In this document: in pieces, positions 9,671 to 18,536 of the stretch
How positions within the stretch are numbered: the first letter of the stretch is position 1
Layout of the letters: each line of letters begins with the position of its first letter
The notes under the pieces: generated by a model
Told to the model about the DNA's origin: nothing
Seen by the model: the letters and a program-made list of their open reading frames with translations, nothing else
Database searches by the model: none
Made by a program: the position numbers and the translations under genes
Source: a virus
Length of the DNA stretch: 20,665 bases
Virus record (IMG/VR): IMGVR_UViG_3300006924_000271
Coordinates: 1-20,665 of that record
Direction: 5' to 3' (one strand)

Positions 9671-10558
9671 CTAGCTATTAAAAAACCTCTTAACATCTTT
9701 AATAGCTATATCAAGCCGTGGATGGTCTTTAAAGTGAAATTCTATTATTTTAAGAATGTTATCTTGAACTGGGTCAGGAGCTTTGTCAAGTATTGCCATA
9801 GAAGGAGGGGAGGGTTTAGCTTTTACTTCTTTTATCACATCCCTTTTAACAGCCTCCTTAACCCTTTCTTGTTCTTGTTTTTTCTTGTCTATTAAAGTTT
9901 GTAGTTTTTGATTGTATACATGTTTATCTTCTAATACAAAGCTTTTAATGTCCTCTTCTGTGAGTTTAATAATTAGATTGTTTTCTTGTGATATATTTTT
10001 TAAATACTTAATTCTATCATAACATATCTTTTGAGTCTCAAGGGAATTAAAAAACCTTTCCTTGATCTCTTGTTTTATTTTATATTTGATGTCATCCGTT
10101 GGTTCAAGATTACTCACTTTTAACAAGTCTTCAATGTCAACGATTAAGTAGTTTTCTCCTATTGAAAATTTACTTTTTAAGTCTTCAATATAGTTATCTA
10201 TTAAGTCTTGTAGTAATTGCAATTTAATCTCTTCAAAATGCTTGTTCTGGGACTTAATATTACTTTGGACTTCCTTGCAAGAGTCTATTAAACTTTTTGC
10301 TTGATTTTCAACAAACTTAATTTGCTCTTTGTATGGTGCAAGGCAATCCCTTCTTTTTGTTTCAATAGATTTAACCATCTTGTTGAGTTCGGTGACGCAT
10401 TGCTTGCCTTCTTTGTAGGTCTCGTAAGTAACCACGATGTTCTTATAATTTTCAAGGTATTTTTCAAGTTCTTGCTTCAGTATGTCAAAATTACTTGATA
10501 ATTGTAATTGCCCGCCTTCAATTGAGACCTGATCTATTAGTGTTGTTATGTTAGTCAT
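9671..10558 (-). CDS. DUF1351-family phage protein
   Basis: 295 residues, mostly long charged helices. The N-terminal pattern FDILKQELEKYLENYKNIVV, then KQCVTELNKMVKSIETKRRD and LAPYKEQI, is typical of DUF1351 proteins. Those are often encoded beside recombination or single-strand-binding genes in phages; their biochemical role is not settled. The C-terminal 70 residues add another helix-rich segment (DHPRLDIAIKDVKRFF). It is last in a minus-strand pair. Its ATG follows an AACAAGTCAAAAC leader like those of the other cassettes. Confidence 0.7.
   Translation of the reverse strand: MTNITTLIDQVSIEGGQLQLSSNFDILKQELEKYLENYKNIVVTYETYKEGKQCVTELNKMVKSIETKRRDCLAPYKEQIKFVENQAKSLIDSCKEVQSNIKSQNKHFEEIKLQLLQDLIDNYIEDLKSKFSIGENYLIVDIEDLLKVSNLEPTDDIKYKIKQEIKERFFNSLETQKICYDRIKYLKNISQENNLIIKLTEEDIKSFVLEDKHVYNQKLQTLIDKKKQEQERVKEAVKRDVIKEVKAKPSPPSMAILDKAPDPVQDNILKIIEFHFKDHPRLDIAIKDVKRFFNS
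9672..9708. repeat. 11-bp perfect inverted repeat at the 3' end of the DUF1351 gene
   Basis: TAGCTATTAAA (9672-9682) and TTTAATAGCTA (9698-9708) flank a 15-base loop, between two convergent genes. There is no T-run right after either arm, so a classic intrinsic terminator is not supported, though it may block or protect converging transcripts. A weaker pair ATTGCA/TGCAAT lies at 9602-9628. Confidence 0.55.
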
Positions 10559-10639
10559 TTTAGTTTTGACTTGTTAATGTTATTAATCTTATTAATATTC
10601 ATACTACTGTCAACCTCGTTACCAAAGGCATCCCAGTAG

Positions 10640-10897
10640 TTATTTATTACTACGGTGTTTCTCATAGTAAATTTGTTTTGCCACTTCCCACATTTTGTAA
10701 TCTTTAACCACCCATTCTCTTGTTGTATAAGTACAACCTTTCCACTCATCTTCAATTGCCTCTTCTACCTGCTTTCTTGCATCTGCTTCGCTAGTAGCAT
10801 TAACAAAGTATACACAGCCGTAATTGGCTCTTTTAGTGCAAACTTCCACTTCTATTTTGTAGTTTGAGTCTGGCTTTGCTCCAAATTTGTTTATCAT
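10640..10897 (-). CDS. Hypothetical protein, DUF1351 operon
   Basis: 85 residues. The pattern VYFVNATSEADARKQVEEAI, with flanking strands KIEVEVCTK and a tryptophan-rich end, resembles small phage proteins with a strand-helix repeat. I do not recognise a named family. It is first in the operon driven by copy M4 and is followed 81 bp later by the DUF1351 gene. Confidence 0.7.
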   Translation of the reverse strand: MINKFGAKPDSNYKIEVEVCTKRANYGCVYFVNATSEADARKQVEEAIEDEWKGCTYTTREWVVKDYKMWEVAKQIYYEKHRSNK

Positions 10898-13024: not shown

Positions 13025-13426
13025 ATGTCAAATATAAATTTAAGTCAACAAGGTATCATCTTGACAAGATCAAATGGCGACTCAATAGCAATAAATGATC
13101 TAATACCCGACTCAATCAATGTTACGAGAGGTGGGGCAAAGGGAGCTATGATAACAACGGCAGGGGCTCCAATGTCAACGCTTGATTACAGTGAGAATTT
13201 TGCAACAATAACCTTTACAATACCGTCATCAACTCTTGAAAGTGAGACAGTTTCTTTTGTAAATGAAATGTATAACGAGTTTTTAGCTGGCAATAAAGGA
13301 ACTTTAAGAGTTCTGGGGACGACTCTTGAATTTGATGGTATATTTCCTGAGAAAATACTAGATATAACAACGGGTAATCAAACAATAGACTTGACTTTTT
13401 ACGGCAATCCTAATACGACTGCCTAA
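13025..13426 (+). CDS. Tail tube protein, putative
   Basis: 133 residues. Tube genes follow sheath genes in Mu-like and other contractile phages, and size and beta-rich composition (SINVTRGG, FATITFTIPSSTLESETVSF, LEFDGIFPEKI) fit a small tube protein forming the inner channel. No single diagnostic motif is visible, so position carries most of the weight. The stop overlaps the convergent gene's stop by 4 bp. No tape measure or baseplate genes follow in the window. Confidence 0.65.
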   Translation: MSNINLSQQGIILTRSNGDSIAINDLIPDSINVTRGGAKGAMITTAGAPMSTLDYSENFATITFTIPSSTLESETVSFVNEMYNEFLAGNKGTLRVLGTTLEFDGIFPEKILDITTGNQTIDLTFYGNPNTTA

Positions 13427-13782
13427 ATATAGTCTTCCATTCTATCAAAAAGATTGCCTTCAACTTTGTGATAATTGGGTAGTAGGGCAAAATATTCTTT
13501 GTTATCCTCATCTCTGACTTCTCCAAAAACTTCTTCATAATCAGCTTTTATAACAGACAAAGCCCAAGCAACTTTTTTATTGTGTTGTACTAGGTTTTCT
13601 GCTTTTACCTCGTGATTAATTGTAATCGCACTTCCAATTACAATTAGAAAGCACAAAAAGAATAAATGAAAGCCCCTAAATGTATAAGCTCCAATCTGCT
13701 TTTTGTAAAGCATTATCTTGTGGTAAGATAGTGGGATCATTGCAATGCCAAAAACAATTGCTATAATTTGTAGTGTTGTCAT
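13423..13782 (-). CDS. Hypothetical membrane protein, two N-terminal helices
   Basis: 119 residues with two hydrophobic segments, about residues 4-20 (LQIIAIVFGIAMIPLSY) and 39-55 (LFFLCFLIVIGSAITIN), joined by a basic loop, then an acidic soluble tail (YEEVFGEVRDEDNKE). It is probably an inner-membrane protein. No family recognised. It is second in a two-gene operon from copy M5. Phage membrane proteins of this size are often superinfection-exclusion factors, but nothing here establishes that. Confidence 0.65.
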   Translation of the reverse strand: MTTLQIIAIVFGIAMIPLSYHKIMLYKKQIGAYTFRGFHLFFLCFLIVIGSAITINHEVKAENLVQHNKKVAWALSVIKADYEEVFGEVRDEDNKEYFALLPNYHKVEGNLFDRMEDYI

Positions 13783-13794
13783 TTTAATTTGTGA

Positions 13795-14022
13795 TTAGTT
13801 AATAATAGAAAAGTTATAAACTTTAAGTTTGTTGTTTACAAATTTGTAAGTAAATTCATAACCTGCATCAAGTAATTTTGTTATAGCCTCTTGTGGTTTG
13901 TTTGTATTGATTATGAAGTCTGATAGCTCGCTTGAAACCGTTGTATCAAGTTTTAAAGTTCTTTCAATGTAAGAAGCGTTGTCAACTTGCTGAGCCGTTG
14001 TTAAGTGAGTTCTGTAAAACAT
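13795..14022 (-). CDS. Hypothetical protein, copy M5 operon
   Basis: 75 residues (MFYRTHLTTAQQVDNASYIE...). It looks like a small alpha/beta fold ending in strands FTYKFVNNKLKVYNFSI. No family recognised. It lies directly downstream of promoter copy M5, and the membrane protein gene follows 13 bp after. Confidence 0.65.
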   Translation of the reverse strand: MFYRTHLTTAQQVDNASYIERTLKLDTTVSSELSDFIINTNKPQEAITKLLDAGYEFTYKFVNNKLKVYNFSIIN

Positions 14023-14050
14023 TTTGTTTGTGATTTGTTGATAAAAAAGT

Positions 14051-14101
14051 AAGGCTTCGTTGCCTTCAATATAAGTATATAGTGATTGTGGAATAAGTCA
14101 A
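14051..14101 (-). promoter_or_regulatory. Promoter with 5' stem-loop (copy M5)
   Basis: Minus strand: TTGACT (14096-14101), 16 bp, TATACT (14074-14079), TATATT, then stem-loop AAGGC-AACGAA-GCCTT (14066-14051). The -35 box overlaps the end of the upstream gene (stop at 14098-14100). Confidence 0.8.
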
Positions 14102-14637
14102 GGGGTTTTTGTCTTTTTTTTATTCATTTTAAATCTATCTATATCGTTTAATAGCATATCGTGAACCTCATCGTCCATGTAGTCTGTTCTTGCTCCCCCA
14201 AACTCTTTTAAAAACTCTTCAGCCTCTTGCTCTGTTAAATCGCTTTCTTGCATGATAGTGTCTATATCGTAGAATTGTCCTACTAGGTAGGTATTCCTGC
14301 GGGTGAGCTCAAGCCAAAGCTCCCAGTCCTCTGCATCTTTTAGTAGTTTATCGTTTTTTGGCTCTTCTATTATTACACTACTTACATTCAATGCCTGCAT
14401 TAGCTCTAGTAGTCTAGCTATACTTCTATAATATATATCGTCCTCAGGTTCAGCACTTATTCTTAACTCTTCTAGTGCATCACTGTCAATCGTATCTATA
14501 CTAAATATATAATACAGTAAATTTCCACAGGCATCGTTTACTGTGTAATAATACTCATTCTGTATTAAAAAGCTTTCCATCTTTTCAATACCCTTCGCAT
14601 CGTAATTAGAAGGAAGAAATTCTTTAATAGTTTTCAT
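14098..14637 (-). CDS. Hypothetical acidic protein, paralogue of 14969-15259
   Basis: 179 residues. Residues about 18-52 contain MESFLIQNEYYYTVNDACGN then LLYYIFSIDTI, nearly the same as a segment of the 96-residue protein two genes upstream in the operon. The rest is acidic and helical, with LTEQEAEEFLKEFGGA. No known family. Being last of five genes from promoter copy M6, it is probably a duplicated and extended form of the shorter protein. Confidence 0.7.
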   Translation of the reverse strand: MKTIKEFLPSNYDAKGIEKMESFLIQNEYYYTVNDACGNLLYYIFSIDTIDSDALEELRISAEPEDDIYYRSIARLLELMQALNVSSVIIEEPKNDKLLKDAEDWELWLELTRRNTYLVGQFYDIDTIMQESDLTEQEAEEFLKEFGGARTDYMDDEVHDMLLNDIDRFKMNKKKTKTP

Positions 14638-14646
14638 TGTTTTATA

Positions 14647-14952
14647 TTATGATTTATCAAAAATTAAAAGCATTGTTGCATCATTCAAGTCTAATGCTTT
14701 TATGATTTTTTGTATTTCAATAGCAACTTGATAATTATGCTCGGTATTGTGTATTATAGTCTCTACAAACTCTTCAAGCTCATCAATATCAAACATTACT
14801 TTACCATCTTCTGCATCATTGAAATATACCCATTCTTTAAAAAGGTCAACATTGATATCATCCCAAACATCTTGAATTTGTATATCACTCATACATTTAA
14901 TAACCTTAATATCCTCTGGGTGGTCAATATAGTGTTGTGTTTTTTTTAGCAT
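14647..14952 (-). CDS. Hypothetical acidic protein, M6 operon
   Basis: 101 residues, strongly acidic (IDELEEFVETIIHNTEHNY), with aromatic and hydrophobic residues. No family recognised. It lies between the two paralogues 14098-14637 and 14969-15259, with 9- and 16-bp gaps. Confidence 0.65.
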   Translation of the reverse strand: MLKKTQHYIDHPEDIKVIKCMSDIQIQDVWDDINVDLFKEWVYFNDAEDGKVMFDIDELEEFVETIIHNTEHNYQVAIEIQKIIKALDLNDATMLLIFDKS

Positions 14953-14968
14953 TTTGTTATTTATTTTG

Positions 14969-15259
14969 TTAATAATTTGAAATTAAAAGGTAATCGGTGC
15001 TGTGTGTATTACTCATCCTTTCCACAATCTTCATAAGTAAAGTGTATTTACCGCCAAACTCTATTTCCATTTTTGCCAATTGTGAGAGTTCTATTGTGTC
15101 TATGCTAAATATATATAATAATATATTACCGCAAGAGTCTCGCATCGTATAGTAATAATCATTTTCTATTAAAAAAGTCTCTATCTCCTTGACCATCTCC
15201 TGATCCCAATCTGATAAAAAACTTTCTATTTTTTGTATTTTTTGTGTAGTTTCTGACAT
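14969..15259 (-). CDS. Hypothetical protein, short paralogue in M6 operon
   Basis: 96 residues. The core IETFLIENDYYYTMRDSCGN then ILLYIFSIDTI matches the 179-residue protein of the same operon. A short helical start and end surround it. No family recognised. The close spacing implies cotranscription. Confidence 0.68.
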   Translation of the reverse strand: MSETTQKIQKIESFLSDWDQEMVKEIETFLIENDYYYTMRDSCGNILLYIFSIDTIELSQLAKMEIEFGGKYTLLMKIVERMSNTHSTDYLLISNY

Positions 15260-15288
15260 TTTATTTTTTTATTTTGTTAATATTGTTA

Positions 15289-15627
15289 TTAAATACCTAT
15301 TTTTATTTTATCGTTATTGAGGGCTTTTCTTACCCTCTCTTCCGCCCCCTCACCACATTTAAATATTCCAACTTTTTTTAATTTAGGTAGTAGCTTTAAA
15401 GGTGTATAGTCTAGATCGGGCATGTGATATAGTAGTATTGTTTCTAGGTTCGCCATCACTTCAATACCATCAAGACTCTTTAGTGTATTAGAATAAAGGG
15501 TAGAAAAATTAAAAAAATTTATACCTTTCACATACTCATCTAAACAAGCAGGTGTTCTTTTGCAAAGAACTCTATCATTTAAGTTTCTCTGGTGAGATAT
15601 ATTTAAAATTTCTTTTATTGTAATCAT
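15289..15627 (-). CDS. Short leucine-rich-repeat-like protein
   Basis: 112 residues. The stretch SNTLKSLDGIEVMANLETIL and the following PLKLLPKLKKVGIF show two or three leucine-rich-like repeat units of about 22-24 residues, suggesting a small binding protein. The Lys-rich C-terminus (KALNNDKIKIGI) is polar. The partner is unknown. It is preceded by an ATTAACAAATCAAAA leader. Confidence 0.6.
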   Translation of the reverse strand: MITIKEILNISHQRNLNDRVLCKRTPACLDEYVKGINFFNFSTLYSNTLKSLDGIEVMANLETILLYHMPDLDYTPLKLLPKLKKVGIFKCGEGAEERVRKALNNDKIKIGI

Positions 15628-15669
15628 TTTATTTTTGATTTGTTAATAATTTTTATTCCCTAACAAGGA

Positions 15670-15891
15670 TTAATCTATATATTCTATATTATATCCAGTT
15701 AGTTCGAACCACTCGCCACCCTCTACTTGATATTTGTAAACTTTTTTATTTTCAGCATAAGAGTTTATAACCTTTTTACCTTCAAGGACATTTTTACCTT
15801 TGACCCAAAGTGAGTAATACTTCTCACCTTTTTCTCTAGTTTTTACCACACCTCTTTTATAAGTATAGCATGTTTCATATTTACTTGTCAT
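15670..15891 (-). CDS. Hypothetical small basic protein, first gene of M6 operon
   Basis: 73 residues with many Lys and Tyr (KRGVVKTREKGEKYYSLWVK), beta-prone. No family recognised. It is directly downstream of promoter copy M6 and carries the full conserved start block. Confidence 0.65.
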   Translation of the reverse strand: MTSKYETCYTYKRGVVKTREKGEKYYSLWVKGKNVLEGKKVINSYAENKKVYKYQVEGGEWFELTGYNIEYID

Positions 15892-15996: not shown

Positions 15997-16773
15997 TTAA
16001 AGTGTGATTAATTGACTTATTTTTTTCACTTTAATTTGATTGAGTTCACCCGTTGCCATTATTTCGGCAAAAATCTTTTGACCCTTTGGGGTTACCAATC
16101 CCTGCATGTGCTTTGTCTTGTTTGTTGTGTTTTCTGTAATCTTAACTTCAAAAAGTCCATTGTCAATATATTTTTGATATGGTAGGTTTTTCTTGTCTTT
16201 TGATTTGATATAATCACTTTCCCTTAACCACTCAATAAACTTATTTGGCTTTACCCCTAACAAAGTTCCCGTCTTTTGATAACCAAGGCTTTTTTCAATA
16301 CTCACCCGTTCAAGTAGTGTTGTTTTTTCCTCTTGACTCTTAATTAATTTTTGTGTGAGTTCTTGATTAAGCTGTTCTTTTTCTTTTAACTCTTGACCTG
16401 CTTTTAATAACAGATCGGCAACTGTTAATTCAAGTGGTTTTTGTTGCTCTATATATTGCCTTTCCACTTCAATGAAATATTCCCTTACCTACTTGCCCTT
16501 TACCGTCCTTTGCATCATTGCAATGTTTTTTGCCGTGTCAATTGTTAGAAAATACTCAATACCAATTTGACCTGTTTTTGAAAGCTCTACTTTTTGGGTG
16601 ACCTTAATATAGTCTTGATCTTCTATAAAACCCTGAAGAAATCTTTTTATCCAAGCAGAAAAGTCTTTCTTTGATTTTAAATTTTTATGTAATTCCCTTG
16701 CACTTACGGTATTTTTAATATCACCAACAAAGTTATTACTCTTAATATTAAAAAGTTGTATATTTTTTTTCAT
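15997..16773 (-). pseudogene. AntA-ANT antirepressor interrupted by an in-frame TAG
   Basis: Read in one frame this is a 258-codon antirepressor. The AntA domain (residues 15-94: SARELHKNL, FSAWIKRFLQ, EYFLTIDTAKNIAMMQRTV) continues directly into the ANT/KilAC domain (LGYQKTGTLLGVKPNKFIEW, GLVTPKGQKIFAEI). A single TAG at 16489-16491 splits it after KGK; the codons on its far side still read VREYFIEVERQY, the conserved continuation of AntA. The stop replaces a position where Gln is common, so C-to-T (CAG to TAG) is the simplest cause. The downstream half has a possible GTG start (16467). It is either a recent knock-out or a gene relying on amber suppression. Antirepressors bind and inactivate phage repressors. 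Confidence 0.75.
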
Positions 16774-16792: not shown

Positions 16793-17419
16793 TTATTTAT
16801 TTAATAATTTTTTAATTACATAGCCTAATAATGCCTTAACTACATAACCACAATTCCACAACATACCATCCTCTTGTCTTACTCTGACAAACTCACAACT
16901 AATTTCATTTATTATGTCCTGCTCTCTTTTAACATCTTCCTCTTGTTGGTTTTTATGATGCCCTTCGTCATATTCAATAGCTATATTTAAGTCTTTTATA
17001 TAGTAATCTATATTGTAATTTAATACTTTATGTTGTCTTTGACCTTTAATATCAAGAGGTTCTAATATTTTTTCTAGTGTATCAAAGAATTCTATTTCTG
17101 CTCTAGTATTTAATATTGTATAATCGTCTAGTGCTTGTAAAAGCTGTCTTTTTAATTCAATGGGTGCATATGTTTTTTGAATGCAACTAATGGCAACTGG
17201 AATGGTTAAAAAGTATTCTTTTAAAGTTGCATTATTTCCCTTCCTTTTTTTATGAAGCCTAATATAGTCTTGATTTTCTGTAAAGTCTTCAAGATATTTC
17301 TTAACCCAAGTGGAATAATCTTGTTTACTCTCCAAGCTTTTGTGAAGTTCCCTTGCGTTTACAGTCTGCTTGACATTGTTGTTAAATTGTTTAGACTCTA
17401 ATTGAATTAGTTTATCCAT
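16793..17419 (-). CDS. AntA-domain protein fused to a PD-(D/E)XK-like nuclease domain
   Basis: 208 residues. Residues 15-80 are an AntA antirepressor domain (NARELHKSLESKQDYSTWVK, EYFLTIPVAIS) closely similar to the adjacent gene. Instead of an ANT domain, residues about 105-185 have the order of DUF559/Vsr-like nucleases: helix around E110, RQHKV, IDYYIKDLNIAIEYDEGHH with D138, E149 and D151, then a basic helix and CEFVRVRQ. Nuclease activity is inferred from that pattern. The ATG at 17419 follows a 187-nt leader holding a C4-like RNA, so expression is probably controlled at RNA level. It could act as antirepressor, nuclease or both. Confidence 0.7.
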   Translation of the reverse strand: MDKLIQLESKQFNNNVKQTVNARELHKSLESKQDYSTWVKKYLEDFTENQDYIRLHKKRKGNNATLKEYFLTIPVAISCIQKTYAPIELKRQLLQALDDYTILNTRAEIEFFDTLEKILEPLDIKGQRQHKVLNYNIDYYIKDLNIAIEYDEGHHKNQQEEDVKREQDIINEISCEFVRVRQEDGMLWNCGYVVKALLGYVIKKLLNK

Positions 17420-17447
17420 TTTCTTACTTTTAAATTAATTATTATTT

Positions 17448-17512
17448 TGGTGGGGAAGTTGCTATTTCTAGCAATTGAACCACGGGATAACATACAAACC
17501 CCAAACCTCCCC
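17448..17512 (-). ncRNA. C4-like antisense RNA (tRNA-like, probable RNase P substrate)
   Basis: On the minus strand the 65-nt segment begins GGGGAGG (17512-17506), which pairs over 7 bp with CTTCCCC (17458-17452), followed by A and CCA (17451-17448). This is an acceptor stem with a CCA end. Inside, GGG/CCC closes a loop containing TATGTTAT; GTGGTTCAATT is free; TTGCTA-GAAA-TAGCAA forms a GNRA-capped hairpin. There is no anticodon or T-arm, so it is not a tRNA. P1/P7 C4 and P4 CI RNAs are known to be cut by RNase P at such stems and to silence antirepressor or lytic genes. It lies directly in front of an antirepressor gene, and two parts are complementary to the leader at 17559-17586. Family assignment is by architecture, not by alignment. 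Confidence 0.62.
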
Positions 17513-17558
17513 AAAAAGAAAATGTTTTTTTGAATGGAAAATATTCATTAAGATGTCA

Positions 17559-17589
17559 TATGTTATTAATCCGTGGAGGCTCAATTCCA
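17559..17589 (-). promoter_or_regulatory. Target hairpin complementary to the C4-like RNA
   Basis: Minus strand: GTGGA-ATTGAGCC-TCCAC (17589-17572) forms a hairpin whose loop is complementary to GGTTCAAT of the RNA (one G-U). CCACGG (17576-17571) and ATAACATA (17566-17559) are also exact complements of CCGTGG and TATGTTAT in the RNA, in the same order. Placed upstream of the RNA, it is in the position of seqA of P4. Confidence 0.6.
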
Positions 17590-17591
17590 CC

Positions 17592-17642
17592 GTAGGTTCT
17601 ACCTACAAATTAATAATATAACAAAATTGATAATTGTCAATA
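17592..17642 (-). promoter_or_regulatory. Antirepressor promoter with 5' stem-loop and operator-like palindrome
   Basis: Minus strand: TTGACA (17635-17640), 16 bp, TATTAT (17613-17618), 6 nt, then stem-loop GTAGGT-AGA-ACCTAC (17606-17592). The spacing matches the other module copies, so transcription likely starts near 17606. A near-palindrome ATTGATAATTGTCAAT (17626-17641, plus strand) covers the -35 box and could be a repressor operator. Confidence 0.68.
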
Positions 17643-17659: not shown

Positions 17660-17720
17660 ATGATATTATATAACTGGAAAAAGTCAAGCTAAAATATCGT
17701 AATATTTACCAATAAGTCAA
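17660..17720 (-). promoter_or_regulatory. Upstream promoter-like sites of the antirepressor leader
   Basis: Minus strand: TTGACT (17682-17687), 16 bp, TATCAT (17660-17665), followed by ATATTGAAG as in the consensus leader but with no stem-loop. A further TTGACT (17715-17720) with a poor -10 (GATATT, 17693-17698) lies just upstream. With the site at 17635 these make three stacked -35 boxes ahead of the antirepressor. Confidence 0.45.
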
Positions 17721-17770
17721 GGGTTTTGGATCGTTTTTTTGGTTTTTTTAGCATCTTATTTTTTAATTGA

Positions 17771-18319
17771 TTAGTTTTTACATACAACAACATCACCTCT
17801 TATAGTAAAACCCATCAAACCCTCAGGGTCTGCAAAGTATAAAGTCATTATACCGCTATCTTTGGGGTGTTGCCAATAAATACTATTATAGCTTTCTATC
17901 ATTTTAGAAAATGCCTGTGTAAGTTTATTAATAGCGTCTATATTTAATAAAACCTGCTTATCCATTGATTGGTTTTCCCTGCATAATCTAGTTTGAACAC
18001 TTTTGTAATCTGGTAGTTTTACATTGCATTTTGGTATTGTATCAAGCTTGTAGTTGTCTTTAATCTGTTTAACAACGGAATCAATATGTGCTTTAGGTAT
18101 TGCATGACTTCCAACTTCTATATTTTGAAAATATTGCAACATGTCCTCACATGTAATCTCAGCGTTTAATAAAGCCTTACCGATGGTTGAAAAAATAGAA
18201 ACTCTGTCCTCTTCTTTGACTATGTTGATATAGTTGAACGGATCGCCTTCTTCTGGTCTAGTGATTTTTTTAAATTGCTGAAATATTGCAATTAGTCTTT
18301 TGTGTTTTGCTTTTGACAT
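17771..18319 (-). CDS. Hypothetical protein, M7 cassette
   Basis: 182 residues. The N-terminal half is basic and helical (KHKRLIAIFQQFKKITRPEE); the C-terminal part ends in strands (GIMTLYFADPEGLMGFTIRG). Low-level helix-rich content and mixed charge; no family recognised. It is a single-gene cassette divergent from dnaB, so a replication-related or early role is possible by position only. The start has the ATTAACAAATCATAA leader. Confidence 0.65.
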   Translation of the reverse strand: MSKAKHKRLIAIFQQFKKITRPEEGDPFNYINIVKEEDRVSIFSTIGKALLNAEITCEDMLQYFQNIEVGSHAIPKAHIDSVVKQIKDNYKLDTIPKCNVKLPDYKSVQTRLCRENQSMDKQVLLNIDAINKLTQAFSKMIESYNSIYWQHPKDSGIMTLYFADPEGLMGFTIRGDVVVCKN

Positions 18320-18354: not shown

Positions 18355-18409
18355 GAAGTAGCAACTGCTAACTTCATATATATATTATAGCAACTACAAA
18401 ATAAGTCAA
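18355..18409 (-). promoter_or_regulatory. Promoter with 5' stem-loop (copy M7)
   Basis: Minus strand: TTGACT (18404-18409), 16 bp, TAATAT (18382-18387), 6 nt, then a long hairpin with arms GAAGT/ACTTC and AGC/GCT around AGTT (18375-18355, one bulged base). It drives the 17771-18319 gene. Confidence 0.7.
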
Positions 18410-18536
18410 GGGTTTTGGGTCGTTTTTTTGGTTTTTTTCGGTCTTTTTTAATAATACATATATTACAAAAAATACCTTTTTAAATATTAAAGGGTTTATT
18501 TATTTTAAATTTTGTTTAATATATTAAGGGGTGGTG

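Follow-up and report, generated by a model that had tools for sequence, protein, structure and literature searches.

The closest described counterparts of the element considered here are the C4 antisense RNAs of phages P1 and P7 (RF01695), whose precursors are reported to be cut by RNase P (Hartmann 1995, as cited in PMC5320573) and whose a' and b' segments pair with a target (PMC5320573), represented in Rfam by the a1b1 family (RF03163). In phage P4, the pairing partners of the CI RNA are seqA, upstream, and seqC, downstream, and the pairing leads to termination (PMC4825925); the IsrK-orf45 element of Gifsy-1 acts through alternative folds (PMC4825925). Here we describe a C4-like RNA of 65 nucleotides (nt) encoded directly before an antirepressor gene, antA, in the IMG/VR virus record IMGVR_UViG_3300006924_000271, of which positions 1 to 20,665 (20,665 nt, referred to as the window) were analysed. 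The element is a real structure. It is a variant of the C4 type and not a member of the C4 family by test, a designation chosen because its working appears C4-like while the membership tests failed. Together with a matching site at the start of the leader, it probably forms an antisense RNA unit of C4 type, with its hairpins permuted, that controls antA.

The C4-like RNA and its upstream target

The minus strand at 17512-17448 reads GGGGAGGTTTGGGGTTTGTATGTTATCCCGTGGTTCAATTGCTAGAAATAGCAACTTCCCCACCA and folds into a three-way junction composed, in order, of an acceptor-like stem, a loop hairpin, a linker, a GAAA hairpin, the 3' strand of the stem and A-CCA. This junction is both the minimum free energy structure and the centroid of the minus-strand segment 17515-17445 (-23.6 kcal/mol), and its topology is identical across all listed suboptimal structures. 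Pair probabilities are 0.93-1.0 in most stem pairs, with lower values (0.80 and 0.63) confined to the junction ends; the z score of the fold is -2.1, an equally good fold being reached by 6 of 200 shuffles. The parts of the RNA, of the leader and of the gene that follows are listed below, each with its basis in brackets (bp, base pairs; ORF, open reading frame).

17448..17512, minus strand: C4-like RNA, 65 nt (fold, shuffle test; Rfam match absent)
17512-17505 with 17459-17452, minus strand: acceptor-like stem, 8-9 bp (fold)
17484..17502, minus strand: loop hairpin with a 9-nt loop at 17497-17489 (pair probability 0.93-0.98)
17494-17487, minus strand: b' recognition bases TATGTTAT in the loop hairpin (fold)
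17474..17483, minus strand: single-stranded 10-nt linker (unpaired probability 0.83-1.0)
17481-17474, minus strand: a' recognition bases GGTTCAAT in the linker (fold)
17460..17473, minus strand: small hairpin with GAAA loop (fold)
17606-17556, minus strand: target element, 44-94 nt 5' of the C4-like RNA (fold, pairing)
17592..17606, minus strand: hairpin 1 of the target, GTAGGT-AGA-ACCTAC, where the transcript is predicted to start (fold)
17573..17590, minus strand: hairpin 2 of the target element (fold)
17585-17578, minus strand: a site, the 8-nt loop ATTGAGCC of hairpin 2, complementary to the linker (fold, pairing)
17556..17566, minus strand: b site ATAACATATGA, single-stranded, the complement of the C4-like RNA's loop (duplex computation)
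17613..17640, minus strand: promoter-like TTGACA-16-TATTAT, 11/12 consensus bases (consensus match only)
17559-17548, minus strand: predicted 3-codon ORF preceding the 26-codon leader ORF, with its start within the b site (translation)
17468..17548, minus strand: predicted leader ORF of 26 codons that runs into the C4-like RNA (translation)
16793..17419, minus strand: antA gene, with an AntA domain and a DUF559-like C-terminal part (Pfam, AntA E 3e-15)

An earlier note on this DNA had proposed a C4-like RNA at these positions, and both its coordinates and its choice of strand are correct. Folding of the minus-strand segment, a check that it suggested, bears out the GAAA-capped hairpin, the 3' ACCA (an A-CCA at 17451-17448 following the stem and equivalent to tRNA positions 73-76) and the missing anticodon arm, which is absent from the fold; ARAGORN finds no tRNA in the window or in the phage. 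The placing of the RNA directly before an AntA gene likewise holds, as 28 nt separate its 3' end from the ATG. The acceptor-like stem has 8-9 bp (pair probabilities 0.8-1.0) instead of the 7 bp first described, and the b' bases, which had been taken as exposed throughout, are unpaired for the first six positions, the last two lying within the stem. The small hairpin abuts the 3' acceptor strand in the place that the T-arm occupies in a tRNA. Its strands are made up of the half-sites of TTGCTA-GAAA-TAGCAA.

The earlier note overlooked that an a1b1-like target matching the RNA lies where the transcript is predicted to start, which strengthens the C4-like reading. The loop and linker of the RNA are complementary to the b and a sites of this upstream element, with a computed duplex energy of -21.9 kcal/mol and the paired segments in matching order. 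The best promoter match would put the transcript start at hairpin 1, and the b site overlaps an ATG at 17559. Cotranscription of the leader with the antirepressor gene downstream is suggested by this promoter match, and antA is the presumed gene under control. The short leader ORFs may be incidental in AT-rich DNA.

The arrangement resembles that of P1. There, as here, a promoter is followed by hairpin 1, by hairpin 2 with the a site in an 8-nt loop, by a single-stranded b site, by the RNA and by an antirepressor operon, and comparison with the P1 c4-a1b1 alignment gives the same layout of hairpin 1, hairpin 2 and b. The start of the P1c4 promoter falls at hairpin 1, as is predicted for the phage described here, and P1 has an ATG at b1 just as ATG 17559 lies in the b site. 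The C4 RNAs of P1 and P7 share with the present element the acceptor-like stem, the two inner hairpins and a target-reading loop and linker; the closing stem is followed, as in C4, by RCC(A), the 3' end being CCACC in P1 and A-CCA here. Unlike in P1, where the small hairpin comes ahead of the loop hairpin, it is placed here after the linker and stacks on the 3' acceptor strand; there is neither an a2b2 site nor an icd gene, and the start codons of the phage mostly lack a Shine-Dalgarno sequence.

Two other systems share parts of this organization. In P4, a processed leader RNA pairs with an upstream site and silences downstream genes (PMC4825925), but P4 uses a downstream site too and the genes that it controls are not antirepressors; the hairpin order of the CI region, judged by eye, is canonical. 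The IsrK-orf45-anrP locus of Gifsy-1 (RF01394) similarly combines a leader element, a processed downstream RNA and an antirepressor gene in a single transcript, but IsrK activates anrP in trans and the translated orf45 reaches the antirepressor gene.

Family tests and rival explanations

Several observations weigh against a C4-type unit at this locus. Membership of the C4 family was set at a covariance score of at least 45 bits with RF01695, and the model gave no match even at E 10 in the window, the phage contig or the 241-nt leader, while P1 C4 scored 68.8 bits as a control in the same kind of search. Neither c4-a1b1 (RF03163, at E 10 in 17400-17640) nor the sRNA-Xcc1 model (RF02221, in the window and leader) was matched, and Rfam at permissive thresholds returned chance matches only. 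The order of the inner parts (loop hairpin, linker, small hairpin) departs from the canonical order of small hairpin, loop hairpin and linker found in P1, Bartonella and others. The leader contains no terminator-like site, and a downstream a2b2 target is absent, the best duplex in the 70 nt 3' of the C4-like RNA reaching -6.6 kcal/mol. The trans pairing taken alone is moderately significant: 18 of 5000 shuffled leaders equal the duplex of -21.9 kcal/mol, as do 56 of 5000 when the C4-like RNA is shuffled instead, and a few other sites in the phage, all in coding regions, offer it an equal or better duplex, as would be expected by chance. Finally, the one further record, IMGVR_UViG_3300025084_000068, has identical DNA, is probably the same virus and gives no covariation to draw on; searches with the AntA protein, the upstream-gene product, a second AntA protein encoded downstream, DnaB and a 25-base pattern yielded no independent homologue. 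Beyond the identical contig, these searches returned remote proteins only, and no such element was seen in their contigs. The C4 identity advanced by the earlier note thus stands as to a C4-like working, with its a1b1-like target, and falls as to the family, on the counts of model, hairpin order and a2b2; support for the former comes from the pairing and layout described above.

We consider it unlikely that the leader acts as a switch in cis only, folding on itself to control antA with no RNA freed to act in trans, in the manner of structure A of the IsrK locus. The proposal keeps some weight because a long-range fold of the whole leader is more stable than two local folds (-49.4 versus -38.2 kcal/mol), and the IsrK-orf45 element provides a precedent for control of this kind. 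A cis switch, however, gives no role to the acceptor stem with its A-CCA or to the coaxial small hairpin, and P1 has the same long-range fold available, yet releases a known C4 RNA.

It is quite improbable that the hairpins arose by chance in an AT-rich leader whose only functional part is a repressor-binding DNA operator of partly palindromic sequence (TTGCTA-GAAA-TAGCAA). The odds of the trans pairing alone, about 1 in 280, leave room for such an origin, but when the 232-nt leader was shuffled 6000 times with its dinucleotides preserved, an acceptable junction arose in 440 shuffles and an equally stable one in 24, a single one of which also had CC flanking it on the 3' side; no shuffle combined equal junction stability with an equal upstream duplex. 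These tests were picked after the element had been seen, so that their odds are somewhat flattering; the case rests on fold and pairing combined and on the layout shared with P1 c4-a1b1, which agrees at several independent points. Nothing comparable was found at any other place in the 42.7-kb phage, whichever strand was considered, and the spacing of the operator half-sites is unequal at the two places where they occur. A remnant of a tRNA or tmRNA-like RNA that has decayed and survives as a transcript end or an integration site would account for the A-CCA end and the T-arm-like hairpin but is hardly credible given the negative ARAGORN result, the failure to recognise an integrase gene beside the element and the loops complementary to the leader, which it leaves unexplained.

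C4-type units at other AntA loci

A set of 239 AntA loci, some of them overlapping, was gathered with two AntA-domain protein profiles, and a structural scan of these loci recovered P1 C4 as a positive control. Bartonella prophages and several other Proteobacteria (including loci L048 and L172) were found to have canonical C4-type junctions approximately 50-80 nt ahead of AntA. Rfam labels some such loci C4 (L134, L035, L048 and L172) and the Bartonella units sRNA-Xcc1, several of the latter scoring above and several just below the cut-off. At the Bartonella loci (including L023, L108, L146 and L168) the units lie about 50 nt before AntA, and several prophages carry two to four of them. The occurrence of the element described here in the same genomic place as these other C4-type RNAs was counted in favour of its being of C4 type. 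No credible second case of the permuted hairpin order came out of the scan of the 239 loci; its other matches labelled permuted lacked CCA, lay far from the gene or had chance-like folds.

The pairing of the Bartonella units was examined by a swap test in which 24 distinct loop-plus-linker sequences were each set against all 24 upstream and all 24 downstream sites. A unit's own upstream site ranked first in 22 of 24 cases, as did its own downstream site, a result equalled by none of 20000 permutations. The upstream site is again a hairpin loop (AGGTG-CCTGAAAAA-CACCT), and the downstream site extends into the AGGAG before the gene. Outside the Proteobacteria, Riemerella columbina (Bacteroidota; L143 646-1220) carries two units, in each of which a junction RNA lies between an upstream site and a downstream one, the latter over an ATG; the complementary bases number approximately 13-15 and are not the same in the two units. 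Each of these upstream sites directly follows a promoter-like word, TATATTTG. Because of the Riemerella columbina units, C4-type logic seems also to exist where Shine-Dalgarno sequences are rare. The element had been described as far from the classical enteric examples, but it is less isolated than this implies, given that C4-type units before AntA are common, occurring in Bartonella, other Proteobacteria and Bacteroidota. AntA itself was found in 3 of 385 alphaproteobacterial genomes.

sRNA-Xcc1 (RF02221) is a family whose function is unknown. It was cloned as an RNA of 88 nt visible on northern blots (PMC2996969), occurs upstream of symE in integron cassettes (PMC12444791) and is usually discussed as a virulence RNA (PMC12189769). 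We found it in 17 of 274 gammaproteobacterial genomes (loci L260-L289). Across 29 distinct units, swapping the sites between units weakened the pairing upstream as well as downstream (0 of 10000 permutations as good for either site), the effect per unit being weaker downstream, where the target site ends in the ribosome-binding site. Like the element described here, sRNA-Xcc1 lies before an AntA gene and has a loop and linker that fit an upstream site whose first part is a hairpin loop; it differs in its canonical hairpin order, its larger first hairpin and a second target ending in an AGGAG ribosome-binding site. From these sequence comparisons we infer that the sRNA-Xcc1 RNAs form a family of C4 type. 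In the literature covered by our search, a single paper names both sRNA-Xcc1 and C4 antisense RNA, tabulating the two side by side, and no connection between them was found there.

Proposed mechanism and its phage context

A working similar to that of the C4 antisense RNAs is supported by the modelled folds and duplexes, and we propose the following course of events. The antA leader transcript would undergo cleavage on the 5' side of 17512; RNase P is the probable enzyme, with the stacked acceptor stem and ACCA as the features that it would use. The freed RNA of about 65 nt would then act in trans, pairing with both the a and the b site on newly made leader transcripts and closing the leader in such a way that ATG 17559 is covered and the whole leader fold can be rebuilt. 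antA, which has no Shine-Dalgarno sequence of its own, would in consequence be poorly transcribed or translated, and the lysogen would stay quiet; where the RNA is missing, for example after infection of a new cell, the antirepressor would be made. Because the target lies upstream only and no ribosome-binding site is covered, an effect on leader translation and premature termination, in the way of P4 CI and seqA, appears likelier than a direct block of a ribosome-binding site in the way of P1. Cleavage, action in trans and silencing of antA are all inferred, not shown.

Downstream of antA lies a further antirepressor gene:

15997..16773, minus strand: second AntA - KilAC antirepressor gene (Pfam)

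This gene contains an in-frame TAG at 16489-16491 (KGK*VREYFIEVERQ) that looks like a nonsense change and not recoding; a reading of TAG as an amino acid was rejected because TAG ends several other genes of the phage. Many minus-strand genes start after a shared leader resembling TTAACAAATCAAAAATAAA-ATG, with no Shine-Dalgarno sequence (9671-10897, 13423-15891, 17771-18319). An AT-rich direct repeat, AATAAGTCAAGGGTTTTGGRTCGTTTTTTTGGTTTTTTT, is present in two copies, one (17711-17752) upstream of the antA leader and one (18402-18443) upstream of the gene at 17771-18319; both have a minus-strand TTGACTTATT box. The rest of the phage contig (L006, L007) carries ribonucleotide reductase, MetK, ThyX-like and pentapeptide-repeat genes. 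A Bacteroidota host, suggested by the starts devoid of Shine-Dalgarno sequences, is not favoured, given that the phage MetK is closest to that of Alphaproteobacteria with small genomes.

If sRNA-Xcc1 is of C4 type, it gains a likely function as a control RNA of the adjoining gene. It is also conceivable, although we put this forward tentatively, that the element described here represents a separate, tRNA-shaped class of C4-type RNAs, with the small hairpin in the T-arm position and the antirepressor silenced solely through a site in the leader. P1 and nearly all Bartonella units have both upstream and downstream targets, whereas the phage described here retains the upstream one only; if the proposed control is true, the upstream site, which is conserved in those systems examined that have two sites, suffices for it. 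The permuted hairpin order further suggests that selection keeps the architecture of such units and not their sequence or the order of their parts, which would explain why family models miss this element.
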